Source: Salinivibrio sp. ES.052
GTDB lineage: Bacteria; Pseudomonadota; Gammaproteobacteria; Enterobacterales; Vibrionaceae
Direction: 5' to 3'
DNA: 64,000 bases
Assembly: GCF_900141775.1 (NCBI RefSeq)
Contig: NZ_FSRI01000003.1
Span: 310,001 to 374,000 of the forward strand
Shown: positions 15,686-61,099 of the stretch, piece by piece
How positions within the stretch are numbered: position 1 is the first letter of the stretch
How the letters are laid out: the number at the start of each line of letters is the position of its first letter
The notes under the pieces: generated by a model
What the model was told of the DNA's origin: nothing
What the model saw: only the letters and a program-made list of their open reading frames with translations
Database searches by the model: none
Made by a program: the position numbers and the translations under genes

Positions 15686-16600
15686 ATGCAAGCTTTTCGT
15701 TCATTTTTTCAATTTATTCTTTTTACCGTTTCTCTTGTATTGAGTGGCCATGCCGCGGCAAAAACTATCGACCACGCGATGGGTACGATTGAGATTGAGG
15801 GTGTCCCTCAACGGGTTGTGGTTCTTGGTCAAGGTAGCTTAGATGTGCTTAACCGCCTCGGTGTTGAGCCTGTCGGAGTAGTAAAATCACTGATGCCTGA
15901 TTACTTAGCAAAAACCTATCAAGATGATAAATATGTGGCGGTTGGGACGGTTAAAGAGCCTGACTACGAAGCTATTTTTACTGCGAAACCGGATTTGATT
16001 ATCGCGGAGGCGCGGATGGCATCATTGATGGGTGATCTAGAAGAAATTGCTCCGACGATTATGTTCCAGGCGGATTATGAAAACTACTGGCAGAGTGTTC
16101 AGAAAAGCTGGCGTATGCTAGGTAATGTATTTAATAAACAACAAAAAGTTGAAGAAATCATTGACGAAATGAGCACCAAGATTGCTCAGACGCGTGAAAA
16201 AGCCATTACCGATAACTTTAATGCTCTGATGGTGATGAGTAACGGCAGTAAAGTGGCAATGTTCGGTGAGAAAAGTCGCTTCGGTATGGTGTTTGACGAG
16301 CTCGGTTTAAAACCGGCAAGAAGTGATAAGGTCGAAGTGGCAGGTTCTCACGGTAATTTGATTTCCTTTGAGTACATTGCTGATGCTAATCCAGATGTGT
16401 TGTTAGTGCTTGATCGCGAGCAAGCGATTGGTGAGGGCGAAGGAAAAGCGAAGGCGCGTTTCGATAACCCATTGGTGAATAAAACACCCGCGCACAAAAA
16501 CCAACGTATCAGCTACTTAGATCCAACGGCTTGGTATATCACCATGGCTGGCATGACCGCGATGGATAAAATGATCGACGATGTGAATCGCGTGCTTTAA
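15686..16600 (+). CDS. Periplasmic ferri-siderophore-binding protein (FatB/VctP/CeuE type)
   Basis: Class III solute-binding protein of 304 residues with a signal peptide (about 1-25, FFQFILFTVSLVLSGHAAAK). The mature part has the typical start TIDHAMGTIEIEGVPQRVVVLGQGSLDVLNRLGVEPVGV and a long backbone helix region, followed by PDVLLVLDREQAIGEG and LDPTAWYITMAGM near the C-terminus. Relatives bind ferric catecholates, photobactin-like compounds or hydrolysed siderophores. GAGGAAAG precedes the ATG. It heads a four-gene cluster with two permeases and an ATPase. A hairpin after its stop probably makes the binding protein more abundant than the membrane parts. Confidence 0.9.
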   Translation: MQAFRSFFQFILFTVSLVLSGHAAAKTIDHAMGTIEIEGVPQRVVVLGQGSLDVLNRLGVEPVGVVKSLMPDYLAKTYQDDKYVAVGTVKEPDYEAIFTAKPDLIIAEARMASLMGDLEEIAPTIMFQADYENYWQSVQKSWRMLGNVFNKQQKVEEIIDEMSTKIAQTREKAITDNFNALMVMSNGSKVAMFGEKSRFGMVFDELGLKPARSDKVEVAGSHGNLISFEYIADANPDVLLVLDREQAIGEGEGKAKARFDNPLVNKTPAHKNQRISYLDPTAWYITMAGMTAMDKMIDDVNRVL

Positions 16601-16618
16601 TCATCATTCATGATACGG

Positions 16619-16645
16619 AAAGACCCGGGCTAGCTCCGGGTCTTT
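16619..16645 (+). terminator. Hairpin between binding protein and permease genes
   Basis: A perfect 10-bp stem (AAAGACCCGG / CCGGGTCTTT) with a 7-nt loop directly after the binding-protein gene. It has only three U residues after the stem, so it is likely a partial terminator or mRNA-stabilising hairpin that sets the ratio of binding protein to permease. Confidence 0.65.
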
Positions 16646-16675
16646 GTGGTTATAGACCTCACCGGTAGTTGTGTT

Positions 16676-17623
16676 GTGAAGTATCTCTCTATTCCTGTTT
16701 TAATCGTGCTAGCGCTGTTGTCGATATCTATCGGCGTTGCGCACGTCTCTTTGGATAGTTTATGGGCAGGCGATCCCGAAGCCTGGACCATTTTTACCAC
16801 CAGTCGTATTCCGCGCCTGTTGGCGATTTGCCTTGCCGGGGCTGGGCTGAGTGTTGCTGGCCTTATCATGCAGCAGATCTGTCAAAACCGCTTTGCGTCG
16901 CCAGATACCACGGGCACCATCGATTGTGCCTTACTCGGGTATGTCATTACCTTGGTGGTGTTTAGCGGCGTAAGCCAGTGGCTTGACTTAGCGATTATTG
17001 TGGGGACGGCCATGGTTGGTACCTGGCTGTTTGTCCGTTTTCTACAACGCCTTAAATTTAAAAATACCGTATTAGTGCCGTTGATAGGGATTATGTACGG
17101 CAATGTTGTCTCCTCGCTAACCCAATTTCTCGCCTATAAATACGATTTGATTCAAACCTTGCAAGCTTGGACCGTGGCGAATTTTTCTTCGGTGTTGGCC
17201 GGGAACTACGAAATTTTGTTTGTGGCCATGCCAGTTTGTGCCATTGCCTATGCCTACGCGAGTCAGTTTAGTGCCGCCAGTATTGGAGAGAGCTTCGCCA
17301 AAAATATTGGCTTGGATTATCAAAAAGTCGTGCTGTTTGGTGTCATGGTGGTTGCCTTGTTGTCATCGGCGGTGGTGATGATTGTCGGTGTGATCCCTTT
17401 TCTTGGTCTGATTGTGCCGAATGTGGTCTCACTTTTCATGGGCGATAACATTAAGCGCAATTTACCTTGGACGGCGTTCTGGGGCGTGGTGTTGGTTCTA
17501 AGTTGCGATATTTTGGGTCGTGTGATTATTTTCCCTTACGAAGTGCCTATTGCCATGATTATTTCAGTTTTGGGTGGCGTGGTGTTTATCTACTTAGTGA
17601 TGAGGGATAAAGCCAATGCGTGA
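16676..17623 (+). CDS. Siderophore ABC transporter permease (FatD/VctD type)
   Basis: FecCD-family inner-membrane permease with about nine or ten membrane helices. The usual family start MKYLSIPVLIVLALLSISIG corresponds to a GTG at 16676; the frame stays open to a GTG at 16646 that abuts the preceding hairpin. Only a weak GGTAG lies upstream of 16676, so the start is uncertain. Typical features: SRIPRLLAICLAGAGLSVAGLIMQ, NRFASPDTTG, and GVIPFLGLIVPNVVSLFMGDNIKRNLP (the coupling helix to the ATPase). Overlaps the next permease by 8 bp. Confidence 0.9.
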   Translation: MKYLSIPVLIVLALLSISIGVAHVSLDSLWAGDPEAWTIFTTSRIPRLLAICLAGAGLSVAGLIMQQICQNRFASPDTTGTIDCALLGYVITLVVFSGVSQWLDLAIIVGTAMVGTWLFVRFLQRLKFKNTVLVPLIGIMYGNVVSSLTQFLAYKYDLIQTLQAWTVANFSSVLAGNYEILFVAMPVCAIAYAYASQFSAASIGESFAKNIGLDYQKVVLFGVMVVALLSSAVVMIVGVIPFLGLIVPNVVSLFMGDNIKRNLPWTAFWGVVLVLSCDILGRVIIFPYEVPIAMIISVLGGVVFIYLVMRDKANA

Positions 17624-18563
17624 TGGACTCAAACTTTCCCTGGTTGCGGCCGGTGTCTTGCTGGTGGCCGGTTATTTCTTGGGGCATGGCCTAACGGCGG
17701 ATAATTATGCTTACTTTCTCTCTCGGCGTACCCCGAAAGTCCTTGCGATTGCACTGGCCGCGGTCGCGATATCAGCTTCCTCGCTCGTATTTCAAACCAT
17801 CACCAATAATCGCATACTCACCCCGTCGATTTTAGGGTTTGATAGCTTGTATGTCTTATTGCAAACCCTGCTACTGGTGATCTTCGGTTCAACCAGCCTG
17901 TATTTGGTCAATGCCTATTTAAACTTTGCGGTGAGTGTGGCACTGATGACGGTAACCGCGAGTGTGCTGTTCACTCTCTATTTTCGTCGACATCGTGCCA
18001 ATATTTATACCTTGTTATTAATTGGTATTGTGCTCGGTAGTGTGTTTGGCAGTATCAGTCAGTTCTTCACGCTCCTCGTTGATCCTAGCGAGTTTGCGGT
18101 GCTTCAAGATGCCATGTTCGCGAGCTTTAATAATGCGAATCGCGATTTGGTGTATATCAGCGTGCCGGTACTGATATTGTGTTTGTTAGCGCTTTATCGC
18201 TATGCCAACCAGCTGGATGTCTGCTTGCTTGGCGAAGACAATGCCACCAGTTTAGGTGTCGATATGCGCGGACTCACCCTGAAGGTGATGATGATTATCG
18301 CCGTCATGATTTCGGTCTCGACGGCTTTGGTCGGGCCCGTGCTCTTCTTTGGCTTGATTGTGGTCAGCCTTGCGCGCCAGATGTTTACTCGCTACCAACA
18401 TCGCTTTTTGATCCTTGCGACCAGTGTATTGGCAGTTTTTTTATTGTTAACGGGTCAGTATGTTGTCGAGCAGTGGTTCGGGTTTGAAACCACGGTCAGC
18501 GTGATTATCAACTTTGTTGGCGGAAGCTACTTCTTGTACCTGCTAACGAAAAACAAGTTTTAA
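17616..18563 (+). CDS. Siderophore ABC transporter permease (FatC/VctG type)
   Basis: Second FecCD-family permease subunit, 315 residues, highly hydrophobic with about nine membrane helices. Key stretches: SRRTPKVLAIALAAVAISASSLVFQTITNNRILTPSILGFDSLY near the N-terminus and GPVLFFGLIVVSLARQMFTRYQHR (ATPase-contact loop). It overlaps the first permease by 8 bp and is followed 5 bp later by the ATPase, so the three form a translationally coupled unit that would act as a heterodimeric channel. Confidence 0.9.
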   Translation: MRDGLKLSLVAAGVLLVAGYFLGHGLTADNYAYFLSRRTPKVLAIALAAVAISASSLVFQTITNNRILTPSILGFDSLYVLLQTLLLVIFGSTSLYLVNAYLNFAVSVALMTVTASVLFTLYFRRHRANIYTLLLIGIVLGSVFGSISQFFTLLVDPSEFAVLQDAMFASFNNANRDLVYISVPVLILCLLALYRYANQLDVCLLGEDNATSLGVDMRGLTLKVMMIIAVMISVSTALVGPVLFFGLIVVSLARQMFTRYQHRFLILATSVLAVFLLLTGQYVVEQWFGFETTVSVIINFVGGSYFLYLLTKNKF

Positions 18564-47413: not shown

Positions 47414-49048
47414 TTAGGCATTATTTGTTGCGGTATTATTAATCTGGCGAACGAGAGTGATGGTGGCAGTGGTGCCTTCGGTTGAGGATGTCAGCTGTAT
47501 GTCTCCTTGATGATGACGGACGATATCATAGGCATAGGTTAACCCGAGTCCCATGCCTTGCCCAACCGGTAAGGTGGTAAAGAAGGGGTCGTAAATACGA
47601 TGACTCTGATCGTGGGGAAGTCCCTGTCCTGAATCTTTCACCGTGATGGTGCACAGTTCGCCCTTCTCTTCCCCGTCGACTTTAATGTGATGCGTCATAT
47701 CTGAGCGACCGCGCTCACAGGCTTGCAGGGCATTTTTGAGTACTTCTTTAAACAACATGACCAGCTCGTCATCGCGTCCCATGACGGGGGGCAATTGATA
47801 CACGGTGGCGGCAATCGATATCTTGAGGTTAGCTGGTGGAGAGAGGGCATTCAGGGCCTCATCAATTACCGCAAAGATCTCAACGCCTTGAAAGTGTTGG
47901 CGTGTTTGTTGGTTGTAGCTGGAGTACTGTTGTAAGGCGGAAACAATATTGATTACGCGTTGCACACAGTCGTTGGCATCGGCAAGGCTATCACTGAAGT
48001 CATCGTAGAGCTCATCAACGTACTGTTGTTTTTTCCAGCGAGTGAGGGCCTCTTGCGGCTCTGTTTGTTGGATGACTTGCTCGGTGATTTGTGTCCACTT
48101 TTGGTAAGTGTCGAGATATTCTTGACACATTTGCAGGTTACTTTTCACCGCGCCGATGGGGTTATTGATCTCATGGGCAACCCCTGCCGCCATGGTCCCT
48201 ATGGATGCCATTTTCTCGCTTTCGAGCAGCTTTTCTTGCGTTTGCTTGAGCTGATGGTTTATCTCGCGCAATTGATCATTCGATTGCACTAAATCAGCCG
48301 TACGTCGTGCCACCTTACTTTCCAACGACTGGTTGGCTTCTTCTAGCCTGTTTTGATAAATCGCGGTTTTGTTTTCGGACTGGCGTAATGCCTGAATCAT
48401 ATTACTAAAGGCGGTGGCGACACTGGCTAGTTCATCGTTCCCGTGAGTAGAAAGGCGTACATCTCTTTTGCCACTGGCGATGGTATCGGCGGCGTTTTTG
48501 AGTTCTGATAACCGCTGGGTGAGATAGCTCCCCAATAGGTAAGAGAATAAGGCCACTAATAACATCTCACCCAACACAATCAGCATGCTCCAATTTTTCG
48601 CGTCTTTAATTTGGCTAAGCAGGCCGGTCAAGTCAAAGCCAATCCAGACCGAGCCAAATTCAATGCCAGACTCGGAAATGGTCGCGCGCACATCATAAAG
48701 TCCATCGGTCACTGACTGGGCATTTGTCTCAAGAATGTCTGAGGTGAAGGCAGGGGGGAGGTTACCAGCCGATGATAAGACTCTCCCATTATCGCCTAAA
48801 ACGGCGACATACATAATATCGCTGTTATGGAGCAGCTCTTGAGTAAAAGAATCGACGGTGGCGAGATCAAATGACAACACCGCATTCTTTACCGTGGAGG
48901 CGAACAACTGAGTTGTGGAACTGGCGCGTTGGTTGAGCCCTTGGTAGTTGGTAGTTTCTAAATAATTAAGGGTCAATGTCAGCAGAATCGCCAACAGGAT
49001 CGCCTCAATCAGTGCGACACCTAAGATGGTCTTTAATCGCAAGGACAT
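47414..49048 (-). CDS. Membrane sensor histidine kinase coupled to PhnD-like protein
   Basis: A 544-residue inner-membrane kinase: two membrane helices (about 5-30 and 150-175) around a periplasmic sensor domain (about 35-145), HAMP-like linker (TQRLSELKNAADTIASGKRDVRL), a coiled coil, phospho-acceptor His292 in GVAHEINNPIGAV and ATP-binding KEVLKNALQAC, DSGQGLP, GMGLGLTYAYDIV. It starts 3 bp after the stop of the PhnD-like binding-protein gene, so the two are a unit in which the binding protein probably presents its ligand to the kinase. It converges with the REC-EAL gene, the likely target. Confidence 0.9.
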   Translation of the reverse strand: MSLRLKTILGVALIEAILLAILLTLTLNYLETTNYQGLNQRASSTTQLFASTVKNAVLSFDLATVDSFTQELLHNSDIMYVAVLGDNGRVLSSAGNLPPAFTSDILETNAQSVTDGLYDVRATISESGIEFGSVWIGFDLTGLLSQIKDAKNWSMLIVLGEMLLVALFSYLLGSYLTQRLSELKNAADTIASGKRDVRLSTHGNDELASVATAFSNMIQALRQSENKTAIYQNRLEEANQSLESKVARRTADLVQSNDQLREINHQLKQTQEKLLESEKMASIGTMAAGVAHEINNPIGAVKSNLQMCQEYLDTYQKWTQITEQVIQQTEPQEALTRWKKQQYVDELYDDFSDSLADANDCVQRVINIVSALQQYSSYNQQTRQHFQGVEIFAVIDEALNALSPPANLKISIAATVYQLPPVMGRDDELVMLFKEVLKNALQACERGRSDMTHHIKVDGEEKGELCTITVKDSGQGLPHDQSHRIYDPFFTTLPVGQGMGLGLTYAYDIVRHHQGDIQLTSSTEGTTATITLVRQINNTATNNA

Positions 49049-49051
49049 GGG

Positions 49052-49870
49052 TTATTCACTCAACAAGTGTTGTAACAGCGTAATGTTTAACGCTCTCACA
49101 TCGTCCCAATCCTCGTCCTGCGCCGACTCTATCCCTTTGAAGCTAATATTATCTAGCAGCGCTCGGCCTTTTTCACTGTCATTGAGGGAGATAAATGCCG
49201 CTTTGATGGCGGCGGCCGTCTTAGCGTCTAAGTCCGGATGAAAGGCGAATGCATGTGGGGTATAACCTGGCGTTTTCCATAATACGCGCAGCTGCTCGCT
49301 TACTTCAGCATCGGTATTATTAAACGTGCGCTCAATGCCGCCGCCGGCAATAAAGAACTCTCGTGCAACGTTCAAATACACCGAGTCATGAGACGAGACA
49401 TATTGCGGTGTAATGCTTATACCTTGATTTTTCAGTGCGGCGCGAGGCACCACGCTGGCTGCGAATGCGGCCGGTGAGGGAAACGCTAAGCGCTTGCCAT
49501 CGAGTGCCTCAAGTGAGGAAATGGACGTCGCTTTCTTGACGACTAAAATACCGTGAATACGTTTATCTTTTTGTTTCACAAACGCTTTATACCCAGGCTT
49601 TTGGTGGAAAACCGTGTAGTGATAAGGATTCATGTAAGCAATGTCGTACTCGCCGGTGAGCACGCGGCCTTCGAATTCAGGGATGTCTTTGGCGGTACGA
49701 AAGACAATATTGTGACCAGATTGTTGAGACACATATTCTAAAATTGGGCCCCAATTGTTGGCTAATGTAATGGCAGATTGTTGCGGCACGATACCAAAGG
49801 TAATGTCTCTGGCCTGAGCATGGGGAACGAGGGTGATGCTGAATAAAAGAGACAGCAAGATTCCTTTCAT
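49052..49870 (-). CDS. PhnD-like periplasmic binding protein, sensor partner
   Basis: A 272-residue exported protein with a signal peptide (about 1-20, MKGILLSLLFSITLVPHAQA) and a type-II periplasmic-binding fold of the PhnD/TctC-like phosphonate group: ITFGIVPQQSAITLANNWGPILEYVSQQSG, GRVLTGEYDIAYMNPYHYTVFHQ, KRLAFPSPAAFAASVVPRAALKNQG, and a SHDSVYLNVAREFFIAGGG hinge region. No permease or ATPase accompanies it. It is coupled to the kinase gene 3 bp downstream, so its role is probably sensing rather than uptake. Confidence 0.88.
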   Translation of the reverse strand: MKGILLSLLFSITLVPHAQARDITFGIVPQQSAITLANNWGPILEYVSQQSGHNIVFRTAKDIPEFEGRVLTGEYDIAYMNPYHYTVFHQKPGYKAFVKQKDKRIHGILVVKKATSISSLEALDGKRLAFPSPAAFAASVVPRAALKNQGISITPQYVSSHDSVYLNVAREFFIAGGGIERTFNNTDAEVSEQLRVLWKTPGYTPHAFAFHPDLDAKTAAAIKAAFISLNDSEKGRALLDNISFKGIESAQDEDWDDVRALNITLLQHLLSE

Positions 49871-50114
49871 TTAATCATTTCTCGTAATGTGATTGACGAA
49901 CTATTAGACAGTGTAGTTACCGACAGCCCCCCTTGCCATGTGATCATGCGTGATTAAGTCAATGAAATCACATTGTAACCAGAATACGACTGTCTCCTGT
50001 CTTAACGAAGACTGTTCGGGTATTGCTTGCCCTCGATGACGCCGTTGATGTCCATGTGTGAGGGCGAGCGTATTGGTGAGAAGTCTTTGAAGTAGAATTG
50101 TCTAGAGACGCGAA

Positions 50115-51320
50115 TTAGCGAGACGACAAGGGGCGTTTGGCAATCAGTATCCCAATGACGATGGTGCAGGAAAGCAGAATGCAGGTTAACGTGGGCAGTG
50201 GCGGATAGCGCAAGGTGAGCGTTGCTAACAGTGATGCTAATCCATAGCCTAGGGTATGGGCCATAGCGATATAACCACTCACTTTGCCCGGCGCATTGTC
50301 GATCTGTTGCATCGCTTGGCTGGTATAGGCGGGGATAAGTAACGCACAGGCGCCAGATATCACCAGCATTGCAATCACTAACGCGGTGACGCTAGGCAGC
50401 AATAGCAGTGCGTAGCCTGCAACCAAACTGATTGCGCCGACGCCTAGCATGTGTTCGGTACTCAGGCGCTGCTTTTTTACCACCAACACCTGGACCACTA
50501 AGGTGGCTATGCCGCTTAACGTCAGCAAATAACCAATAGCTTGGCTGACGTTATTGGCAGACCATTCGGTGAGGGTATTGAGCATGGGGGTGAGGTTATA
50601 TTGCAACAGGGCAATCGCTGCACACACGGCGAGGCCGTAACCCATATAGGGCCAAATAGCTTTAGGCGCTAGCCATTGACCAGCGGGTGAGTGAGGTTCG
50701 TCCTTTTTGTCCTCGCAGTGAGGCATCATGCTGACAACCAATGCCGCCAATACGGGTAGCAGTAGCATCAACGTCAGTGAAGCGTAGGGGCTGATCACTA
50801 GTACGGCCGACGCAATCAACGGGCCAGCTAATCGACCGAGGCTTAAGCCAATGCTAATGGAGGTAATGGCTTGCATACGGCGCGCCTCACCGGCGAGCAA
50901 CACGGCCCAATGCTGATTAGCAGGTACCATCCCTGCGACCGTCAATCCGTAGATCACCCGCGCCAGCACCGCGAGCGCTAGCCAAGGCCATTGGTTAGCG
51001 CTGCTTTGCGCGCCCAATGTGGCAGCGAGCAATAACGCGAAGCTCACGGCCATACCGGTTAATGCTTGTAGCACCACAAATTTGGGGCCGTGATGATCGC
51101 TGAACCGACCCCAAAATGGCGCGGCGGGCAGGAAGAGCACGCTCCCTACGGCAATAATCACTGCCCATGTCGACAGTGAAAATCCTCCTTGCGCCACCAA
51201 TAGAGGCAGCGAGACCAAGAGCCCATTCTGACCAATGCCCATTAAAGCGGCAATCAACGTCAAGGTGACCGATTGCCACTTTGTGGTTTGTATGGCTGAT
51301 TGTGTTTGCGCGTGCGCCAT
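50115..51320 (-). CDS. MFS transporter, probable aerobactin exporter
   Basis: Twelve-helix major facilitator protein of 401 residues. Motif A-like loop GRFSDHHGPKFVVLQA between helices 2 and 3, and hydrophobic segments throughout. Its ATG overlaps the iucD stop by one base (TAATG), so it is translated with the siderophore enzymes. By position it most likely exports aerobactin, like ShiF or PvsC in other iuc- or pvs-type loci; this is inference. Last gene of the iutA-iucAB-iucD-MFS string. Confidence 0.87.
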   Translation of the reverse strand: MAHAQTQSAIQTTKWQSVTLTLIAALMGIGQNGLLVSLPLLVAQGGFSLSTWAVIIAVGSVLFLPAAPFWGRFSDHHGPKFVVLQALTGMAVSFALLLAATLGAQSSANQWPWLALAVLARVIYGLTVAGMVPANQHWAVLLAGEARRMQAITSISIGLSLGRLAGPLIASAVLVISPYASLTLMLLLPVLAALVVSMMPHCEDKKDEPHSPAGQWLAPKAIWPYMGYGLAVCAAIALLQYNLTPMLNTLTEWSANNVSQAIGYLLTLSGIATLVVQVLVVKKQRLSTEHMLGVGAISLVAGYALLLLPSVTALVIAMLVISGACALLIPAYTSQAMQQIDNAPGKVSGYIAMAHTLGYGLASLLATLTLRYPPLPTLTCILLSCTIVIGILIAKRPLSSR

Positions 51321-52633
51321 TACCAGCCGGCCACTTTTTGCACCTCAGGGGTGGTGGATGCCGCCAGCGTCCAGTCCAGCAGGCCGTGGTGATGAGCAAT
51401 ATCGTACACCGGCGTACCGCTAATCGCATTAATGATGGTGGCGGCTCGCCATGCTGCGAGACTCAGTTGTGGCTCAATAATACCGTGACAATGGGTGCCG
51501 ACATTCATCATATACAATGCCTGTGAGCAGCCTTCACGCATTTTTACTCGGTAGTGAGTATTCACATTTGGCCGCCCTTGGTCATCAAGGACGAGATGAT
51601 CGCTTAGGGTATTGAGGCATTGAGGGAGTGCCCGAGAAAAACCAGTGCACAAGATCACCACGTCCGCATCGATTGTCGCGGTGTCACCGGTCAAGGTTGC
51701 TGTTGTGGTTAACTGGTAACCTGCTTGGTGTGATTGCATGCCAGTAAGCATTTGTCCCGGAAGCAGTCGCCACCACAGTGGGGACCGGCGTACGTATTTG
51801 TCGTGATACAGGCGTTGATAGAGTCCTTGTAAGCAGTCGTCGGTGATCCCATCACTGGCAAGCTTTTGTTGCGTAAGTTGAGTGTGTTTGACCTTGGGGT
51901 CGAGGCTATGAAACTGCTCTGCATAATCAGGCATAAAATACTGATCGGTAAACGGGTTCTCATCCAGTCCTTGTAGATTAGGGCGGCGAGAAACCCAATC
52001 AACATGCGCCACTTTGCCAAATTCACCATCAAAGACATGCTGGAAGACATCCGCGCCGGTTTGGCCACCACCGATAATGGCCACTTTTTTACCTATTAAG
52101 TCAGGTTGTCGGAGCGCGAGTTCGCTGGCGTGAAACACCTGTTCACCCACAAACGACGTGGCGCAGTCAGGCATAAACGGTTGGGTACCAGTCCCCACGA
52201 TTAAATGATCGCAGGTCAATTGTCCGTGTGGGGTATTCACCGCGAAGCCTGAGTCATAAGGCGTGATGTTCAGCACTGGCGTATCGAATTGGGTATTGGG
52301 AAGCTGGTGCGCGACCCAAGCCATATAATCAGAAAACTCCAACCGCGATATCGTCTGTTCGCCCCGCGCGGTAAAGGGATAAAACTTTTTGGTTTTAACC
52401 AGATAATTAATGAAGGTGTAAGGGCTGGTCGGATCAACCGCTGTTACCATGTCTTTTAGGTACGAGGTTTGCATTTTCGCATCGTCCAGCAGCAAGCCGG
52501 GGTGCCACGCAAAGCGTGGTTTTTGCTCGACAAACAAACTCGACATGGACTGACTGTGGGGAGCCAGCAGCGCCGCCGCACTGAGATTAAAGGGGCCAAG
52601 CCCTACACCTAAAACAGAATAATGCCTTGTCAT
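51320..52633 (-). CDS. iucD: L-lysine N6-monooxygenase IucD
   Basis: FAD- and NADPH-dependent hydroxylase that makes N6-hydroxylysine, the first step of aerobactin synthesis. I start at MTRHYSVLGVGLGPFNLSAAAL (52633), because AAGGA lies 7 nt upstream and overlaps the stop of the previous gene; the frame opens at 52681. This gives 437 residues, close to the 445 of E. coli. FAD site GVGLGPFNLS (about 8-17), RFAWHPGLLLDDAKMQTSYLKDMVTAVDPTSPYTFINYL, NADPH site IIGGGQTGADVF, and the C-terminal LCTGFSRALP and HGIIEPQLSLAAWRAA. Coupled to the fused iucA-iucB gene. Confidence 0.95.
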   Translation of the reverse strand: MTRHYSVLGVGLGPFNLSAAALLAPHSQSMSSLFVEQKPRFAWHPGLLLDDAKMQTSYLKDMVTAVDPTSPYTFINYLVKTKKFYPFTARGEQTISRLEFSDYMAWVAHQLPNTQFDTPVLNITPYDSGFAVNTPHGQLTCDHLIVGTGTQPFMPDCATSFVGEQVFHASELALRQPDLIGKKVAIIGGGQTGADVFQHVFDGEFGKVAHVDWVSRRPNLQGLDENPFTDQYFMPDYAEQFHSLDPKVKHTQLTQQKLASDGITDDCLQGLYQRLYHDKYVRRSPLWWRLLPGQMLTGMQSHQAGYQLTTTATLTGDTATIDADVVILCTGFSRALPQCLNTLSDHLVLDDQGRPNVNTHYRVKMREGCSQALYMMNVGTHCHGIIEPQLSLAAWRAATIINAISGTPVYDIAHHHGLLDWTLAASTTPEVQKVAGW

Positions 52634-52643
52634 CTCTGCATCC

Positions 52644-55316
52644 TTATTGCGCATAATGTGCGAAAAAATCGTTACGCTCACATTGCATCAGTGCGGCGCG
52701 TTTATGGGGAAAGTCAAATTCTTTTTGTTTTTTCATTCCCACGCCGCGGGCGATCCTGACCACACGCCAATTTTCCGCATTGGGCTCACCCATCACATTT
52801 GGCGTGCGAGACTCGGCCAAAAAGCAGTAATGGATGACCGATTGCGCCCAGGTGTTAAAGTATTGGCGGCCTAAAAAGTCGGGATTGCCGACCAGCATAT
52901 GCATACCGCGATCGAATGCATCGACATCGTAGTAAGGCCCTAGTCTGTCTTCCGCAACCCAGTAAATTTCAAAGTAGCCAAAAGGCTGGCCATCAAACTC
53001 GCCAATCACCGGGAGCAAGTGCGCGTCATGGTGCGCCTTTTGCAGATAGTGTCGGTGAAAGTCGAGCGAGCCTTCTAACTCCCAAATCGGGGCAATATCC
53101 GGATGGTTGTGCCATGCGTGGAAGCAAGCGAGATCGCGTTCTGTCTCTGCCGAACGTAGCGTCAGTGTGCGCCCTAGGTGATAAAAGTAGCGACGATAAA
53201 ACACGCCTTGCGGCTTTTCAGGCCGCGTTGGGTAGGTTAAGCCGTTCTCTGCCGTTTGGGATGCCTCACTCGTTGGAGGCTGAGCTTGGTGCCAAATTGG
53301 GCAGTGCTGTTTAAACTGCGAACGTGTCAGTGGTGTGCCTGGCGCGACCACCGCTTGCAGTGCGTGAGGATAATCACTGGCATGCAGTGTTTGGCATTGA
53401 TGTTGATAAAAGACGTGCTCAACGGCCGACCACCAGAGGGATTCGTCGCGACAATAGCGCGTCGTTAGCGTCGACGTCGCGGTGCTATCGTCCGGTGTGT
53501 TCAGCACGAAGGTCGCTTTGGCCTGACCATGCTCCATCACATCGATTAAGTGATAAGACGCGTTGAGCGAGTGACTGCGAAGCCCCACGGTGCGATGAAG
53601 ATTAACCGGTTTAAATACCCACGAACAGAGAGCTTTGTCACCATAAAATGGGTTATCGATATCAGTATAAATTTGGCTTGGGTCGGCCAGTGTCGCTTCA
53701 TTGTGATCGGCGAGGAAAGTGTGAAAGTTCCGTTTCCAGTGCAGTGTCGGCGAGTCGAGAAGATAGTCATACAGACGGCTATCCACCGGGTGGCCCGTCT
53801 GCCATGTCGCGAAGGCTTGACGGCAGATCTGCCACAAACGCTGTTCGCTGGCACCGGTGGCTTCGCTGATCGCGGAAAGGGTATTGATCAGCGTATTACC
53901 AATCAGATAGTAGCTCAGATACGGATCGACCTTATCAGCCGGCACATAACAACTCGGTAATCCCTCACTGAATGCGTCAGGGAACAGCGTCGGGGCAGGA
54001 TCGGTGATCCAGATGCCCTGACAGTCTCGGTACATCATGGCACAAGGCAAACCGTGCGCGGTACGCAGCAAGATATTTTGCTGGTGGGCAAGCAATAGGA
54101 TGCCGTAATCACTGCGCGCCAAACACAGGGGATACAGAACATGAGTTAAGAAGGCGGCTAGCCAATGGTGTGCAGCGTCGGGTTGTGACCATTGATAGTA
54201 CTGTGCGGCTTGCGCGATCAAGGCGCCAATTTGGCTGCCTTGCGCATGCGGCTGATTGATACTGGCGAGTAGGTGGACATCTTGATCGGCTTGGCGGGCA
54301 AATATATTGTCGCGCAAGCTCACCAAAGGCAGTGATAAAGGCTCGCCTTGCGCGGACAAAATGGTGCACCAGACTGGCTCTTCGATAAAGGTCGTGGTGG
54401 GAGTTCGCTGCTGCAGCGTTTGTCCGGGGGCTGCGTTTAGCATTTTACTCAGTAACGTACCACGCTTGGCTTCAGTGGCGGTTAATAGCCGTACCGAGTT
54501 AGTGAGTTTGACGGGCAGCGAGACTTTTAGCATCCAGTGATGGTCGGGATGATAAATGGCGCGCGACGATGAGGTGGCCAGCCAGCCGCTACTGGTCAAG
54601 GCTAAATCAATCACGCTGTCTTTGAGTGTGTTTGCGTCATCACTGTCACGCCATGCCTGCGCTTGTAACGGATGCATGGGCAGGGGGAGCCAGCCTTGTG
54701 GTAAATTGGCCGCATGGGTCAAGCCCACGCTATCCACAAATAACGCCTGTAAGGTGTCGAGCACATCATGATTCACCCCTTCGCCTGTCCATTGCCCCGG
54801 CGCTACGGCAAACCATTCAATCGCAAATGACTGCGCAAATTCGGGTAAGTACGCCGCTTGTTGTTCAGGCGTAAGCGGCTCATTGCTTTTGGGCGCTGGA
54901 TGCATGCTATGACCACCGGTCAGAGACTGTTCCGATTCGATAAAACGCTGGGGCCAGCGCTCGGAAAACGTGTGTTGCCAATGCGTTTCTGCCCGCTGAA
55001 TATAGGCATCCGACTGGCTAACGCGCGATGCAAAGCGATCGAGGCGCTCGCCACTGACCTCAGGCACCGATACCGCGATACGGCAAACCGCATCGGCAAA
55101 GGTGGTAGGGGTGGTGTCACCTTCGTCAGAGCGCCACAGTATGGCCCCTTGATAGCGATGACGGCCGGCTGCTGAGGTGTAGGTGAGCGGTAATAATAAT
55201 TCGCCCTGCTGGCATGGGAAACAGGCGTGGTCAGGCTGACCTTTTATCACACGCGTGTGCGGGTGCTCGACAAACAACGCATTGAAAAACGCATTCAAAC
55301 TCAGGGGATGTGTCAT
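52644..55316 (-). CDS. iucA/iucB: IucA-IucB fusion: aerobactin synthetase plus N6-hydroxylysine acetyltransferase
   Basis: A single 890-residue protein covering two aerobactin steps. Residues about 1-565 are IucA-like NIS synthetase: GGHSMHPAPKSNEPLTPEQ (134-152), SSRAIYHPD, VKLTNSVRLLT, LLLAHQQNILLRT, MMYRDCQG and HNEATLADPSQIY. Residues about 585-890 are IucB-like; the GNAT part (about 700-890) has PQGVFYRRY, PIWELEGSLDFHRHYL, FGYFEIYWVAEDRLG, DRGMHMLVGN and KEFDFPHKRAALM. The reading frame is continuous with no stop between the parts. In E. coli these are separate genes. GGAG precedes the ATG. The frame's stop leads straight into iucD. Confidence 0.95.
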   Translation of the reverse strand: MTHPLSLNAFFNALFVEHPHTRVIKGQPDHACFPCQQGELLLPLTYTSAAGRHRYQGAILWRSDEGDTTPTTFADAVCRIAVSVPEVSGERLDRFASRVSQSDAYIQRAETHWQHTFSERWPQRFIESEQSLTGGHSMHPAPKSNEPLTPEQQAAYLPEFAQSFAIEWFAVAPGQWTGEGVNHDVLDTLQALFVDSVGLTHAANLPQGWLPLPMHPLQAQAWRDSDDANTLKDSVIDLALTSSGWLATSSSRAIYHPDHHWMLKVSLPVKLTNSVRLLTATEAKRGTLLSKMLNAAPGQTLQQRTPTTTFIEEPVWCTILSAQGEPLSLPLVSLRDNIFARQADQDVHLLASINQPHAQGSQIGALIAQAAQYYQWSQPDAAHHWLAAFLTHVLYPLCLARSDYGILLLAHQQNILLRTAHGLPCAMMYRDCQGIWITDPAPTLFPDAFSEGLPSCYVPADKVDPYLSYYLIGNTLINTLSAISEATGASEQRLWQICRQAFATWQTGHPVDSRLYDYLLDSPTLHWKRNFHTFLADHNEATLADPSQIYTDIDNPFYGDKALCSWVFKPVNLHRTVGLRSHSLNASYHLIDVMEHGQAKATFVLNTPDDSTATSTLTTRYCRDESLWWSAVEHVFYQHQCQTLHASDYPHALQAVVAPGTPLTRSQFKQHCPIWHQAQPPTSEASQTAENGLTYPTRPEKPQGVFYRRYFYHLGRTLTLRSAETERDLACFHAWHNHPDIAPIWELEGSLDFHRHYLQKAHHDAHLLPVIGEFDGQPFGYFEIYWVAEDRLGPYYDVDAFDRGMHMLVGNPDFLGRQYFNTWAQSVIHYCFLAESRTPNVMGEPNAENWRVVRIARGVGMKKQKEFDFPHKRAALMQCERNDFFAHYAQ

Positions 55317-55386
55317 GACAACTCCTTACAGACACGGGCTTACTGGGGCAATGTTGTTGTGCAAATATGGGCTAAAAAAATTGGGA

Positions 55387-55414
55387 GAAAAGGCGCCCAG
55401 CGAGGGCTGGGCGC
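55387..55414 (-). terminator. Terminator-like hairpin between iutA and iucA-iucB
   Basis: On the minus strand a perfect 8-bp stem GCGCCCAG / CTGGGCGC with a 6-nt loop is followed by CTTTTCTC. It lies in the 112-bp gap after iutA and should lower read-through into the biosynthetic genes, unless they have their own promoter here; I see no Fur box in the gap. Confidence 0.7.
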
Positions 55415-55428
55415 GACAAGGAATACAA

Positions 55429-57612
55429 TTAAAACGTGGCGCTGTAGCTCAAGCTAAAGGTGCGCCCTACGCCGGCGTAATTGAACAGGTTGCTAAGCCC
55501 ATAAGCACTGTATACTTTTTGTGCCTTTTGACTCCAAATCGTTTGATAGTCTTTATCAAACAGATTTTGGATGCCGAAATTAATTTGGCCGACTGGCAAA
55601 GTGTAGTACCCATTAAGACCGACTAGCTCGTAGCCTTTGATACGATCATTATCTTGGTCAGATAAATCACCGACATGCTGTAAGTTAAGCTCTGTTCCCC
55701 AATCGAAGTTATCGTAACCCACTGCCGCCATCGCGGTAGAAGGGCTCGCATTGTAGATACTTAGCTCATCCCAATGGCCATTATTCTTGATTTCGCTCTG
55801 CACTAAGTGGCCTTGTGCGCGGCTATACCACGTGTCAGTGAGGTAGTATTTGATTTGCCCTTCGAGGCCATAAATACGCTGTTTGTCACTATCTAAGGTG
55901 ACATCGAGATCGCTGTTGTACTTGTACGACTTGTCCGAAATTGAGTAGTACGCGGCGACTTGCGCGTTGTAGTCTTGTTGCTGGGTTCGCCAGCCTAGCT
56001 CAAAGGAGTTGGTTTTTACGCCGTCCAATTCTGTGTTTTGAACACTCACGCTATTGGTGAGGGCGCCGCCTGCATATGTGCCTTTGCCGTAGAATTTTCC
56101 TGGGTCCGGCATATTAAAGCCTTGACTAAAGTTGGCCCAAACTTGTTGGTTATCGGTTAGGTCGTACTTGAGCCCCGCATTTGCGAGCCAAATATCTTTA
56201 TCCGTCGTACCACCGGGGATGGTATCCGCGCTGTTTAATTTTCCAACGAGTATTTTGGCTTGCTCTGCAAAACCGATAAAGTTATCGCCTTCATACTGAG
56301 TGTACTGATAGCGCAATCCGGCAAAGGCATTCAGTTTGTCGTTAATGGCCCAATCCAGCTGAGAAAATACGCCTACGTTTTGAGTCGTAAAATCTGGATA
56401 GCGGCCTACGTCACCGAGGTGCTTAAACTTAAGCCCATTGCTGGTTAGACTTGTGCCTTGATCATAGAGGCGCTGGAATGCATCGAACTTCTCTTGGCTG
56501 AAATCGATTCCATAATTCACCGTTATGTTATCAATACTTTTCTCAAGTAACACTTTTGCACCGATCACTTGGTTGCTTTGCTCTGAAGCCCCAAGATATT
56601 GCATTTTTAGTGCACGGACGGGAAACGGAAAGAACCCAAATGTTTCTTTGCGATAATAAGCTTGGGCCAGTAAGGAATGGCTAAAGACGTTAGCATTACT
56701 GTATTGAGCGTTGAGCATCATGCGTTCAGTAAAGGGTTGCTCATCCAATTCCAGTCCATCGGAGCGTTTAATCAGCGAATCATCTTTAAGACCCGCAAAC
56801 ATAGGCCCATAATCAATCCCATAATCCGTATCTTGCTGACTGTCATAGTATTGAGCAGTGAGGGAAAGGTGCTGTTCGTCATCAGGGCGGTAATCGAGGC
56901 TACCCATCACATCGATGCTGTCATTGAATTGGGTATCGGTTTGGGTCACATCGGGCAGGATAGGATCGCCATTGCCGTCGTAGGCCGCGCCTTTGCCTTC
57001 ATACGCTACGGATAAGCGCCCTTGCAAGGTATCACTGCCGCCGGATACCGCGACCGCAGCGTTTTTGGTCAGGTCGTCGCTGTTGTTAAACCCAGTGGTG
57101 ACACCGGTATGTAGCTCTAACTGCGCATCGCCAGCCTCACCACGTTTGGTGATGATATTGATAATACCGCCGGTTGCGCCGGCACCATAAATCGAGGTTG
57201 CGCCCGATAGTACCTCAACACGTGCGACATTAAAGGGGTCGATACTATCCAGTTGGCGGCTGATGGTGCGTGCAGCATTCAATGCGACGCCATCAATCAT
57301 GATTTGCGCGCTGCGGCCACGTAAATTCTGTGAGGCATTGGTACGTGCGTTGGTGCTGCCAAAGTCAAAGCTTGGGATCAGCTTTCCTAGCGCGCCTTTT
57401 AATGATTCACCGCCTTGAATTTCACGGGTTAATTCTTCATTGGTGATCACCCAGTTGGTGCTGGCGGAATCGGCGATGGTGGTCTGAATTTTACTGCCAG
57501 TCACGATGATGGTTTCGGTATTGGCCGCAGAAGGGGCGGCTTGGGCAAGGTGTGCGCCAATCACTAACGCCAGTGGTGTCAGTGAGAGGCCAACTGCTTT
57601 TTTAGTGTTCAT
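55429..57612 (-). CDS. iutA: TonB-dependent ferric aerobactin receptor IutA
   Basis: Outer-membrane receptor of 727 residues with a signal peptide (about 1-25, LSLTPLALVIGAHLAQA) and a TonB-box-like ETIIVTGS. Plug domain: NWVITNEELTREIQGGESLKGALGKLIPSFDF, NLRGRSAQIMIDGVALNAARTISRQLDSIDPFNVARVEVLSGATSIYGAGATGGIINIITKRG, closely matching IutA. The barrel ends with FSLSYSATF and C-terminal Phe. AAGGATAATT precedes the ATG. Transcribed away from iucC from a Fur-box region, with the fused iucA-iucB downstream. Confidence 0.94.
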   Translation of the reverse strand: MNTKKAVGLSLTPLALVIGAHLAQAAPSAANTETIIVTGSKIQTTIADSASTNWVITNEELTREIQGGESLKGALGKLIPSFDFGSTNARTNASQNLRGRSAQIMIDGVALNAARTISRQLDSIDPFNVARVEVLSGATSIYGAGATGGIINIITKRGEAGDAQLELHTGVTTGFNNSDDLTKNAAVAVSGGSDTLQGRLSVAYEGKGAAYDGNGDPILPDVTQTDTQFNDSIDVMGSLDYRPDDEQHLSLTAQYYDSQQDTDYGIDYGPMFAGLKDDSLIKRSDGLELDEQPFTERMMLNAQYSNANVFSHSLLAQAYYRKETFGFFPFPVRALKMQYLGASEQSNQVIGAKVLLEKSIDNITVNYGIDFSQEKFDAFQRLYDQGTSLTSNGLKFKHLGDVGRYPDFTTQNVGVFSQLDWAINDKLNAFAGLRYQYTQYEGDNFIGFAEQAKILVGKLNSADTIPGGTTDKDIWLANAGLKYDLTDNQQVWANFSQGFNMPDPGKFYGKGTYAGGALTNSVSVQNTELDGVKTNSFELGWRTQQQDYNAQVAAYYSISDKSYKYNSDLDVTLDSDKQRIYGLEGQIKYYLTDTWYSRAQGHLVQSEIKNNGHWDELSIYNASPSTAMAAVGYDNFDWGTELNLQHVGDLSDQDNDRIKGYELVGLNGYYTLPVGQINFGIQNLFDKDYQTIWSQKAQKVYSAYGLSNLFNYAGVGRTFSLSYSATF

Positions 57613-57702
57613 AATTATCCTTATTCGTCACAACGCTGCAGGGGTGATGAGGCTGCGTCCCTGCAGTACTACTGAATCACTACCTTTGCTTCAATATCAA
57701 AT

Positions 57703-57721
57703 GATAATGGATATCATTATG
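57703..57721. promoter_or_regulatory. Strong Fur box in the iutA/iucC divergent promoter
   Basis: GATAATGGATATCATTATG matches the 19-bp Fur consensus GATAATGATAATCATTATC at 15 of 19 positions by eye, is palindromic, and continues into a second overlapping A/T-rich half (57713-57731). It lies 91 bp upstream of the iutA start and 96 bp upstream of iucC, so one site can shut both directions in iron-replete cells. Confidence 0.85.
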
Positions 57722-57816
57722 ATTATTGATCTTTACTCGTGATGTCAATACATTGATAACCGAATTGCCACATTTCACCTAAATTGGTGAAAATTAACGC
57801 ATAAAGGACGTAACAA

Positions 57817-59535
57817 ATGCAGGGGAATTATTGGCAAGCTGCCAATCAGAAGTTGATCGCAAAAGCGATCAGTGAGCTTCACTTTGAAAATGCGATTACC
57901 GTTTCGCACTTGGAAGGGCGACAGTTTAGGTTGAGGCTACCTGATGCCGAGTGGCTATTCTCTGGCACCATGAGTCTTTGGGGCATGGTGATGGTAGAGA
58001 GTGGTAGTGTGTCACGTGGGGACAATCGTCAGCCCGAGCTTATTTCGCTGGTGATGGATTTACAAGCCGTTATTGAGATGGTGCCGCTTCACCTCGGTGG
58101 CTTTATCGAAGAGTTGCAAGAAACGCTCGCCGAGGAACAGCAGCACCTGGCGATGCTAAATGCAATGCCAGCAGAACAACTGGTGGTGCTATCAGAAATC
58201 GACCGTCAGCCCTATTTGGATGCTCATCCTAAGTTTCTTGCCAATAAGGGCCGGTTAGGCTGGGGGCAGCAAGAGCGCCAGCAGTATGCGCCTGAATACG
58301 GTAACGCTTTTGCCTTGCATTACATCGCAGTACATCGAGAATGTGCGCAACATGGCTTTCGTCACGGGCTGGAGCAGGTGGCGTTGCTTACAGATACACT
58401 ATCGCTGGCCTCTTACGATGCGCTCATGACACGGTTACCGGCGGATAAGCATGATGATTATCTCATTATGGCGGTGCATCCATGGCAGATGCAGCGCTAT
58501 ATTTACAGCCAATATGCATCATTACTCGCCTCAGGTGACATGATTGACCTTGGCACGAGTACGGAACAGTGGCGTCCACAGCAGTCCATTCGTACGTTGA
58601 GTCGGGCTGATGGACAAGGCAAATACGACGTCAAAACCGCCCTGACCATTCTCAATACCTCCTGCTATCGCGGTGTACCGGGGAGTTTTATTGCGCATGG
58701 CCCAGTGCTCTCAAACTGGCTGTCAGCCTGTGTGAGCCAGGATGCATTATTGTCGCGTCTTGGTATGCATGTGCAGCAGGAAGTGGCGGGAGTGTACTGC
58801 CCGCAGCCTTATCAGGCGCAAATAGACAGCTGTTACAAATATCACGAAATGTTGGGATGCGTCTGGCGTGAACGTGCGGAAAGCCTGTTGCCGTCTCATC
58901 AGCGACCCATGAGTATGGCGACCTTGATGCAAGCGGGTGGCGATGGGGTCAGCTGTGTCGAAGCGCTGATTACACGCACCGCGTTAACGCCTAACGAATG
59001 GTTACAGCGGTTGTTTGATCATGTCGTTGTCCCCCTCTATCACTTACTATGCCAATACGGGATTGGGTTGGTTGCGCATGGGCAAAACATTACCGTGGTG
59101 CTTGAAGACGATATCCCAGTGGGCTGCATGATCAAAGATTTTCATGGTGACTTACGCTTTGTCGATCAACCGTTTCCAGAGTTGGATAGTTTGGATAAAA
59201 GCGTGCGAGCGGCGATCAAACACTTACCGCCACACTATCTGGTTCATGATTTATATACGGGACACTTTGTGACGACACTGCGTTTTATTTCGCCATGGTT
59301 TGTGTCACTTGGGGTGGGTGAGGTTGAATTCTATCGTCAGTTAGGTGATACCCTTCACGCATATCAACAGGCACATACACAGTTGAGTGAACGGTTTAGT
59401 TTGTTTGATGTGTTGAGTGAGACGAAAGAGAAGATTTGTATCAATCGGGTCAGATTTAACATTGGCTACGATGATAGTAATGAACGACCGTTGCCTATGT
59501 TTGGTGAGCCTATCGCTAACCCTCTCGGCATGTAA
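57817..59535 (+). CDS. iucC: Aerobactin synthase IucC
   Basis: NIS synthetase of 572 residues that joins the second N6-acetyl-N6-hydroxylysine to the citrate intermediate. Matches IucC: WQAANQKLIAKAISELHFENA, HPKFLANKGRLGWGQQERQQYAPEYGNAFALH, AVHPWQMQRYI, QQSIRTLSRADGQGKYDVKTALTILNTSCYRGVPG, LLCQYGIGLVAHGQNITVVLEDD, KDFHGDLRFVDQ and HDLYTGHFVTTLRFISP. AAAGGA lies about 8 nt before the ATG. It is divergent from iutA, unlike the single iucABCD-iutA string of E. coli, and has its own terminator. Confidence 0.95.
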   Translation: MQGNYWQAANQKLIAKAISELHFENAITVSHLEGRQFRLRLPDAEWLFSGTMSLWGMVMVESGSVSRGDNRQPELISLVMDLQAVIEMVPLHLGGFIEELQETLAEEQQHLAMLNAMPAEQLVVLSEIDRQPYLDAHPKFLANKGRLGWGQQERQQYAPEYGNAFALHYIAVHRECAQHGFRHGLEQVALLTDTLSLASYDALMTRLPADKHDDYLIMAVHPWQMQRYIYSQYASLLASGDMIDLGTSTEQWRPQQSIRTLSRADGQGKYDVKTALTILNTSCYRGVPGSFIAHGPVLSNWLSACVSQDALLSRLGMHVQQEVAGVYCPQPYQAQIDSCYKYHEMLGCVWRERAESLLPSHQRPMSMATLMQAGGDGVSCVEALITRTALTPNEWLQRLFDHVVVPLYHLLCQYGIGLVAHGQNITVVLEDDIPVGCMIKDFHGDLRFVDQPFPELDSLDKSVRAAIKHLPPHYLVHDLYTGHFVTTLRFISPWFVSLGVGEVEFYRQLGDTLHAYQQAHTQLSERFSLFDVLSETKEKICINRVRFNIGYDDSNERPLPMFGEPIANPLGM

Positions 59536-59536
59536 A

Positions 59537-59558
59537 AAACCCGCCGTTTGGCGGGTTT
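59537..59558. terminator. Intrinsic terminator shared by iucC and the next gene
   Basis: Nine-bp stem AAACCCGCC / GGCGGGTTT with a 4-nt loop just after the iucC stop; A and T ends on both sides make it usable for both converging genes. Confidence 0.85.
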
Positions 59559-59582
59559 CATTGAGCCAGTAAAGCAAAGGGG

Positions 59583-59888
59583 TTATTTTCCGCTCTTGCT
59601 TTGCTTGGTCAACTCTTTAATGGTTCGGCTAATTTCACGGCGCTGTTTTGAAATTTCCGCGTTTTTGATGATGTGATCATCAACACGATCTTCGTAATCG
59701 CCTTTCATATTCTTGATGATTTCAACGATTTCTTCGTAAGACATCTCAGGCTGGATGTAGTCGAGCAAGTTTTCTAACAGAACCACCCGCTTTTGGTTAT
59801 CGCGGATTTTCTTGTCATTGTCCTGGATTTCTCGTTTTAGCTTGTTCTTTTGTCGTGAGTGCTTAACGATCTCATATACGCTGGTCAT
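59583..59888 (-). CDS. Small coiled-coil hypothetical protein, 101 residues
   Basis: A charged 101-residue protein, [45 protein letters not shown]..., with an N-terminal coiled coil (about 12-45), a middle [24 protein letters not shown] and a basic C-terminal helix. No cysteine or membrane segment. AAGG lies 8 nt before the ATG. Similar small proteins occur in Vibrionaceae as hypothetical; I cannot assign a role. It converges with iucC on a shared terminator. Confidence 0.75.
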
Positions 59889-60114
59889 AGTAGTCGCCTT
59901 CTATTTTTTGAAGTATGAAAAAATTAAACCACAAGCGCCGCGGCAAACCCAGTCTTTTTGCGCTTGTAGTGGGGAGTTTTTGGTCAATTGAGTTATCGAG
60001 GAAGTAATAGGATAATCAGTATGAATGTTAGTGTTGAGACACCAAGAGACGTGTGTCTTTTCTACCATTCCACACCTCATTGATACTACTGTTTGATGGA
60101 AGTAAAGATATCAG

Positions 60115-60153
60115 GCTGGTATTGACAATGTTATGACACATGTCAATACCAGC
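60115..60153. repeat. 13-bp perfect inverted repeat downstream of cheV
   Basis: GCTGGTATTGACA at 60115-60127 and its exact reverse complement TGTCAATACCAGC at 60141-60153, separated by 13 nt (ATGTTATGACACA). Very stable hairpin in RNA from either strand but with no U-run, 17 bp after the cheV stop on the minus strand. It may be a transcription stop aid, an mRNA-stabilising end or a protein-binding palindrome. Confidence 0.6.
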
Positions 60154-60169
60154 TACAGCCAGACTCACC

Positions 60170-61099
60170 TTAATAATCGGTTGGGCTGCCTTCTAACTTC
60201 ACGGATGAGCCAGAGGTTTTCATCATCGCACCGCGCAGCATCGCCTGCACGAGTTCCGTTGCATCGAACTTCGTTAGCGCTTCGTGTGCACCGACTTGTT
60301 TCGCTCTATCGACGCTGATGTCACTGGATAAAGAGGTATGCAAGATCAGATACGCTTCTGCGAGTTTATCGTCACCACGAATTTCAAATGCAAGCTCATA
60401 GCCATCAATACCTGGCATTTCAATATCGCTGACCACAATATCAAACGGCTTACCCGTAGACGCAGCATTTTTCATCATCTTCAATGCTTCCAGTCCGTTG
60501 TTGGTTACAAAGTAGGGAATATTGATACTGTCTAGGGCTTCTGATAGCTGTCTTCTGGCTGTCAAAGAATCATCCACCAGAAGGATATTCATCGGCTTCA
60601 GCTTCTCTCGGTCTACGTCTGCCAAGATAGGATGGAGCTTATCGGGGTCTGATGGGAAAATGTGTTCCATAATGTATTCTACATCGAGCAGCTGTACCAG
60701 CTTATCATCAATGTGCATTACCCCCGTTAAAAACGCACGCGTTCCTAAGGTCTCAGGTGGTTCAGAAATAGAGCGCCAATCACATTCACTAATTTTATCA
60801 ATGCCACGCACTAAAAAACCCATTACGCGGCGTTGGCAGTCAGTGACGATGATATAGCAAGACTCCCATTCGGACTTTGCTATCGGCTTATAGCCAATCG
60901 CTTTTGCCATATCAATGACAGGAGTGGCGATGCCACGGAAGCTAGTGGTCCCGATCACCGTTGGGTGAGATCCCGGCAAATCCGTGAGCGGCTGAAAAGG
61001 GATGATCTCCCGCACTTTTAATGTCCCAATGGCAAAAGATTGGGTGGCAGTGAGGCGGAACATCAACATGCCTTGTGCTTGATTAGCTTTGCTCTTCAT
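60170..61099 (-). CDS. cheV: Chemotaxis coupling protein CheV (CheW-REC)
   Basis: Cytoplasmic adaptor of 309 residues. CheW-like domain (about 8-150: LMFRLTATQSFAIGTLKVREII, LPGSHPTVIGTTSFRGIATPVIDMAKAIG) and a receiver domain (about 170-295) with phospho-acceptor Asp225 in VVSDIEMPG, ILLVDDS at the acid pocket, LHTSLSS and Lys277. It links receptors to CheA and may act as a phosphate sink or adaptation element. GAGTG lies upstream. It is divergent from a second cheV; the two differ widely in sequence, so they probably serve different receptors. Confidence 0.93.
   Translation of the reverse strand: MKSKANQAQGMLMFRLTATQSFAIGTLKVREIIPFQPLTDLPGSHPTVIGTTSFRGIATPVIDMAKAIGYKPIAKSEWESCYIIVTDCQRRVMGFLVRGIDKISECDWRSISEPPETLGTRAFLTGVMHIDDKLVQLLDVEYIMEHIFPSDPDKLHPILADVDREKLKPMNILLVDDSLTARRQLSEALDSINIPYFVTNNGLEALKMMKNAASTGKPFDIVVSDIEMPGIDGYELAFEIRGDDKLAEAYLILHTSLSSDISVDRAKQVGAHEALTKFDATELVQAMLRGAMMKTSGSSVKLEGSPTDY

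Follow-up and report, generated by a model that had tools for sequence, protein, structure and literature searches.

The window considered here is the whole stretch of 64,000 nucleotides analyzed from Salinivibrio sp. ES.052, and the genome carrying the locus is 3.57 Mb in size. Read from left to right, the locus consists of an MFS transporter gene, iucD, a fused iucA-iucB gene, a hairpin, iutA, a Fur-like box, and iucC, with the first three genes and iutA on the minus strand and iucC on the plus strand. The transporter (50115-51320, minus strand; Pfam MFS_1) is presumed to be a siderophore exporter; its start overlaps the iucD stop, and it occupies the same position in two other Salinivibrio loci (L003 and L004). 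The iucD-like lysine/ornithine N-hydroxylase (51320-52633, minus strand) was recognized by the Pfam family Lys_Orn_oxgnase, which includes both lysine and ornithine enzymes, and by its relatives in the PDB, and the ATG at 52633 is a likelier start than the listed GTG at 52681, which falls within the fusion. Its identity to the IucD of fetched loci with separate iucA and iucB genes is 43-49% in 18 of 19 cases, and no IucD was found in the short stretch available for the remaining one (L075).

The iutA-like TonB-dependent receptor (55429-57612, minus strand; Pfam) is 38-46% identical to the receptors of the fetched separate-type loci of Vibrionaceae, and its best NCBIfam match is RhtA, at 715 bits and under that model's cut-off of 1100. 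Divergent from it lies iucC (57817-59535, plus strand), a type C NIS synthetase by Pfam and by its match to IucC of PDB entry 6cn7 (E 1.4e-127). Taken together, the Pfam and PDB matches bear out the gene assignments first proposed for the locus. Elsewhere in the window, at 15815-18551, a periplasmic binding protein is accompanied by two matches to FecCD permeases, together a predicted iron-, siderophore-, or haem-type ABC uptake set. A second ABC uptake set, with a 684-aa, FhuB-like double permease, occurs on the same contig beyond the window (C5 605929-608669).

The Fur-like box (57703-57721, minus strand) lies in the iutA/iucC divergent promoter region and agrees with the consensus at 16 of 19 letters, where 0.01 such sites would be expected by chance in the window. 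Of 20 producer loci tested (out of 32 fused-type loci), 19 have a box at a threshold of at least 15 of 19 letters, which no more than 3 of 200 shuffles reached; L124, with 13/19, is the exception. All four receptor-only loci have one as well. An iucC divergent from iutA with a shared Fur box, as the preliminary description had it, is upheld, the Fur-like box lying in a predicted promoter region and being conserved in relatives. On this evidence the locus is probably Fur-controlled.

Between iutA and the fusion there is a terminator-like hairpin of nine pairs (55393-55414, minus strand; -20 kcal/mol, z -5.35) with a weak T-tract, in a region whose 13 terminator-like sites are near the shuffled mean of 10.5. 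Its existence, also proposed at the outset, is confirmed by how well it folds and by its conservation in all eight Salinivibrio genomes with small changes: the stem is short of one base in G006, wobble changes occur in some, and G002 and G004 lack the T-tract. The hairpin still ends iutA in Salinivibrio genomes that have no synthesis genes behind it, which fits a putative iutA 3'-end or partial-termination element. Differential expression of uptake and synthesis could conceivably be achieved through it, as had been suggested. The iutA leader also contains an inverted repeat at 57636-57666 (CTGCAGGG/CCCTGCAG) that is kept in 8/8 Salinivibrio genomes. The 86-nt stretch around this repeat folds no better than shuffles (z -0.52), and Rfam gave no match at gathering scores from 49000 to 61000.

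The fused iucA-iucB gene

The fused gene (52644-55316, minus strand) is one open frame of 890 codons' worth of protein, within which three parts can be distinguished. Residues 1-559 (53640-55316, minus strand) form the IucA half, a type A NIS synthetase whose residues 6-559 match the IucA of PDB entry 5jm7 (E 1.6e-73). Residues 560-690 (53247-53639, minus strand), across which the frame is unbroken, comprise a joint of low conservation and the N-terminal part of IucB, while residues 691-890 (52647-53246, minus strand) form the GNAT part of the IucB half. Pfam places IucA_IucC at 125-353, FhuF at 384-542, and Acetyltransf_8 at 725-869, the last with a score of 171 bits. The PDB relatives of the C-terminal end are the hydroxamate GNATs SidF (matched by residues 694-885), Rv1347c, and MbtK. 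The IucB half is 37-45% identical to separate IucB proteins (17 fetched loci), and the IucA half has 31-36% identity to the IucA proteins of separate-type loci recovered in the search of Vibrionaceae genomes.

Both halves also appear to have kept their catalytic residues. S250, R252, K264, T272, R276, and H411 are identical in 25/25 fused proteins and align with the AcsD active-site residues S279, R281, K293, T301, R305, and H444. In the GNAT half, H806 and E844 are likewise invariant in 25/25; H806 corresponds to H130 of Rv1347c, and E844 stands opposite D168. The joint is the least conserved part, with only 10-30% identity to fused relatives in the 30-residue blocks from 571 to 690, and the distance between two fixed points flanking it ranges from 143 to 200 residues across fused proteins. 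In two Salinivibrio pairs, dN/dS is about 0.10 for the fusion as a whole and is highest in the joint, at 0.17-0.20 versus 0.06-0.10 elsewhere. Structure prediction from three near-identical sequences gave a mean pLDDT of 30.7, too low for a usable model.

A sequencing artefact was considered as the source of the fusion and rejected. The named relatives of the protein, from Salinivibrio proteolyticus and S. sharmensis, are about 90% identical to it, and the same unbroken fusion occurs in the records of two S. proteolyticus strains and of S. sharmensis; since these records are independent and agree, sequencing error does not account for it. The single 890-residue frame with IucA and IucB domains, as originally reported, stands on its Pfam and PDB matches, and the fused gene is real.

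Distribution and descent of the locus type

A search of 329 Vibrionaceae genomes returned some match in 143. Tallied by hand from the matches listed, down to about 147 bits, at least 19 of the 329 carry the fused-type gene (four Salinivibrio and 15 of the genus g12) and at least 49 carry separate iucA and iucB, so that the fused type makes up 19 of the 68 genomes with both IucA and IucB among the matches listed. The preliminary description had conceded that the arrangement would not be unusual if most Vibrionaceae loci were of this kind. They are not, the fused type being a minority; it is nonetheless a regular one, with a recurrent gene order.

In 12 of the 19 genomes, one stop-free frame runs across both halves. 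The gene is cut or interrupted in the other seven (G003, G157, G187, G214, G215, G305, and G347), through either decay or poor assembly. In three of them (L071, L072, and L073, from G215, G214, and G157), the frame is broken in the joint, near residues 620-650, and other interrupted genes in the same loci make sequence quality or decay a likely cause. In S. socompensis (G003; L077, L078, and L005), the fusion, iucD, exporter, and iucC lie in pieces owing to frame and contig breaks, which may be either real decay or draft errors.

For the separate type, stretches were fetched from 18 of the 49 genomes (16 measured, G211 read, and G151, as L089, mapped), and the other 31 were classed from search rows. 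Seventeen separate-type loci were measured, 16 of them from Vibrionaceae; the eighteenth, L089, yielded no pair. With the first ATG taken as the start, iucA and iucB overlap in 13 of the 17, in 10 cases by 8 bases. The two frames differ in 15 of the 17 and are the same in two, where a stop and a spacer lie between the genes. Frame lengths had suggested independent fusions in G312, G211, and G217, and these candidates were dropped because a stop codon divides iucA from iucB in each, although both lie in the same frame.

An order-wide sample of 394 genomes added 14 with the fusion outside Vibrionaceae. Thirteen of these, from four other families, were fetched, and the gene was a single frame in 13/13. 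Three further candidates (G786, G876, and G809) proved to be separate genes once fetched. In a class sample of 369 genomes, no match across both halves was found among those listed besides the window's own. Plasmid records with a match numbered 1907; among the 30 best and a spread of 60 others, one annotated gene spanned both halves, that of S. proteolyticus TGB10, where it is annotated merely as a GNAT family acetyltransferase, and one Sinorhizobium row among the listed plasmid matches came without annotation. The rarity that had first been implied does not hold, as the locus type is common to five families of the order, and comparison against E. coli alone had hidden it.

The 32 fused-type loci examined (the window, three other Salinivibrio, 15 of g12, and 13 of other families) have much in common beyond the fusion itself. 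The gene iucD directly follows the fusion in 32/32, and iucC is divergent in 27 of the 32, every locus whose fetched stretch contains it; in L062, L064, L069, L070, and L127 it does not fall within that stretch. What varies is the content of the interval between iucC and the fusion, where genes other than iutA were named by eye from their translations. In Salinivibrio, this interval contains iutA alone; in g12 and some other families, it contains either a single transporter-like gene or a series of transporter, iutA, ABC uptake, and nitroreductase-like genes; and in the four loci of family f12, it contains no gene at all.

Trees were built for each half of the protein, excluding all interrupted fused genes. 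With 12 fused and 17 separate proteins, the fused ones fall on one side of a branch in both the A-half and B-half trees (100/100 and 100/99). Wider trees of 23 fused versus 17 separate, which excluded near-copies (fused L063 and L066; separate L081, L088, L090, and L093), again place the fused rows on one side, with an SH-aLRT of 92 for both halves, a value from a quick method on a branch that is not starred. Some rows are long-branched, in the smaller trees as well as the wider ones. Because each half groups in this way, the simplest reading is that a single old IucA-IucB fusion took place and would never have been split later.

Receptor-only Salinivibrio

All eight Salinivibrio genomes have iutA beside a DUF496 flank (the window, L003, L004, L077, and L112-L115). 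NIS synthetases were found in four of the eight, one of which is G003 with its broken genes. The stretches fetched from G004, G002, G001, and G006 (L112-L115) showed neither a fusion nor iucC or iucD. The receptor itself is under purifying selection, with dN/dS of 0.06-0.18 in nine pairs, receptor-only ones included. Such receptor-only strains could, in principle, use the siderophore without making it.

Producers and receptor-only strains are intermixed in both the iutA tree and the flank tree. Starred branches force at least two changes in each, although both trees are small and mutually discordant; this disagreement makes recombination likely, and regain may have occurred. It is conceivable, then, that the receptor-only state is ancestral and that the producers gained their synthesis genes, and the trees alone, being discordant, do not separate gain from loss. 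The edges of the locus, however, make this highly improbable. G001, which lacks the fusion, retains the exporter, and that gene is now headed by sequence from the fusion, namely its ribosome-binding region, its ATG, and its four opening codons (MTHP). On the other side, homology persists up to about the iucC ATG in both G001 and G006. These remnants are readable in the sequence as the footprints of deletion, and they already disfavour gain for these two genomes; G002 and G004 share another edge, which may stem from either loss or gain. Most simply, the synthesis genes would have been lost in several Salinivibrio species and the receptor kept.

Pathway, precedents and significance

In the aerobactin pathway, IucD hydroxylates lysine, IucB acetylates the product, IucA carries out the first ligation to citrate, and IucC carries out the second. 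Each step has a candidate here. Lysine would be hydroxylated by IucD and then acetylated, with acetyl-CoA as the donor, by the GNAT half of the fusion. Of the two acetyl-hydroxylysines needed, one would be ligated to citrate first, by the IucA half, and the other afterwards by the separate IucC. Export of the finished product would fall to the MFS protein and its re-import to IutA. Product identity, enzyme activities, and promoter function are all inferred from sequence. The locus is most likely an aerobactin-type locus, probably under Fur control, of a distinct and old type defined by the fused IucA-IucB, iucD, and divergent iucC, with probable loss of synthesis in several Salinivibrio species.

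A less favoured possibility is that the product is a different citrate-hydroxamate, with another amine or acyl group. The receptor is closest to RhtA (rhizobactin) among NCBIfam models, albeit under the cut-off, and GNAT family members use various acyl donors; in fact, the PDB relatives of the GNAT half include SidF, an anhydromevalonyl transferase, and MbtK, a lysine acyltransferase, while those of IucC include DesD and alcaligin synthetase. This is rather unlikely given that aerobactin enzymes are the closest PDB matches of both the IucA half and IucC and that no decarboxylase or aminotransferase occurred in the eight proteins scanned with Pfam (47414 to 59888).

The fusion would most likely fix the IucA and IucB activities in a 1:1 amount and in the same place. 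It had also been suggested that N6-acetyl-N6-hydroxylysine could pass straight from the GNAT site to the IucA site. In the wider trees, each of the 23 fused proteins has indeed kept its halves together, down to an A-half identity of 31-37%, and catalytic positions are invariant in both halves. Such channelling is distinctly doubtful even so, for the part that connects the halves is, as described above, the least conserved of all and variable in length, and IucC, which needs the same intermediate, remains separate. Each aerobactin takes two acetyl-hydroxylysines and IucA uses just one of them, the first, so the fusion by itself could carry no more than part of the flux. Its retention would be explained well enough by equal dosage and proximity of the two activities, with no need for channelling.

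Compared with the iucABCD-iutA systems of E. coli, Klebsiella, and V. mimicus, the locus is alike in its four enzyme relatives, siderophore receptor, and Fur-like box. It differs in having iucA and iucB merged into a single gene, a divergently transcribed iucC, and iutA at the head of the operon; the arrangement iucABCD-iutA, in which iucA and iucB are distinct genes, does not occur here. This deviant order is treated as a locus variant of the same pathway.

Fusions of this general kind are already in print. PMC10609062 describes bifunctional IucAC/AcD synthetases in Pedobacter, with a type A NIS synthetase first and an acetyltransferase last, in clusters judged to make unknown siderophores, one group having a decarboxylase; the same arrangement had been seen earlier in Anabaena variabilis and Synechococcus. 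By that description, the Salinivibrio fusion shares the order of type A synthetase first and acetyltransferase last. In the one cyanobacterial record examined, a Picosynechococcus PCC 7117 plasmid (L116:10949-13390), an 813-aa protein combines a type C'-like NIS synthetase with a GNAT at its C-terminus, unlike the type A arrangement given in that paper, and its gene adjoins separate NIS synthetase and GNAT genes. DfoC-type GNAT-NIS fusions (PDB 5o7o) also pair an NIS synthetase with a hydroxamate GNAT in one protein, but there the GNAT comes first (chain 19-183) with a type C' synthetase behind, whereas here the order is reversed and the synthetase is of type A. BibC is a further GNAT-NIS fusion, according to PMC8891985.

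Receptor-only strains have also been described. One study used IucABCD of V. mimicus as the query to chart aerobactin across Vibrionaceae and marked receptor-only species; the words "fusion" and "fused" are absent from its main text (PMC5812596). A V. toranzoniae strain with the receptor and without iucABCD is reported in PMC5277001. As portrayed in those accounts, the Vibrio cases resemble the Salinivibrio ones in that synthesis genes are absent and IutA is kept; they differ in that the Salinivibrio strains occur alongside a fused-type locus and have readable deletion edges. No IucA-IucB fusion appears in passages of PMC6562677, PMC12874462, PMC3225927, PMC7221216, PMC9600172, PMC11424930, and PMC8891985. 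In sum, both receptor-only strains and fusions with the NIS synthetase ahead of the GNAT are known in kind. No description of an IucA-IucB fusion in aerobactin loci came up in searches of open-licence papers, and as far as these searches reach, the aerobactin version, its locus type, and its spread appear to be undescribed.

Although it spans at least five families, the fused locus type could possibly be mis-scored by surveys whose queries are the four proteins of V. mimicus. Receptor-only cheating has reportedly been seen in marine Vibrio by Cordero and others in 2012. Salinivibrio, in which producers can be compared with receptor-only strains at the same site and the deletion edges are readable, offers a natural test of how a shared siderophore is lost. 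A broader and speculative idea, not to be rated as probable, is that one ancient fusion founded a second, hitherto unrecognised aerobactin locus type in the order, that a need for the two sites to cooperate, through hand-over of the intermediate, has kept it unsplit, and that the shared promoter layout permits loss of synthesis from both sides. If this were true, the Salinivibrio deletions would spare the receptor and its Fur control, and siderophore cooperators and cheats would stand side by side within a single genus as a natural series.
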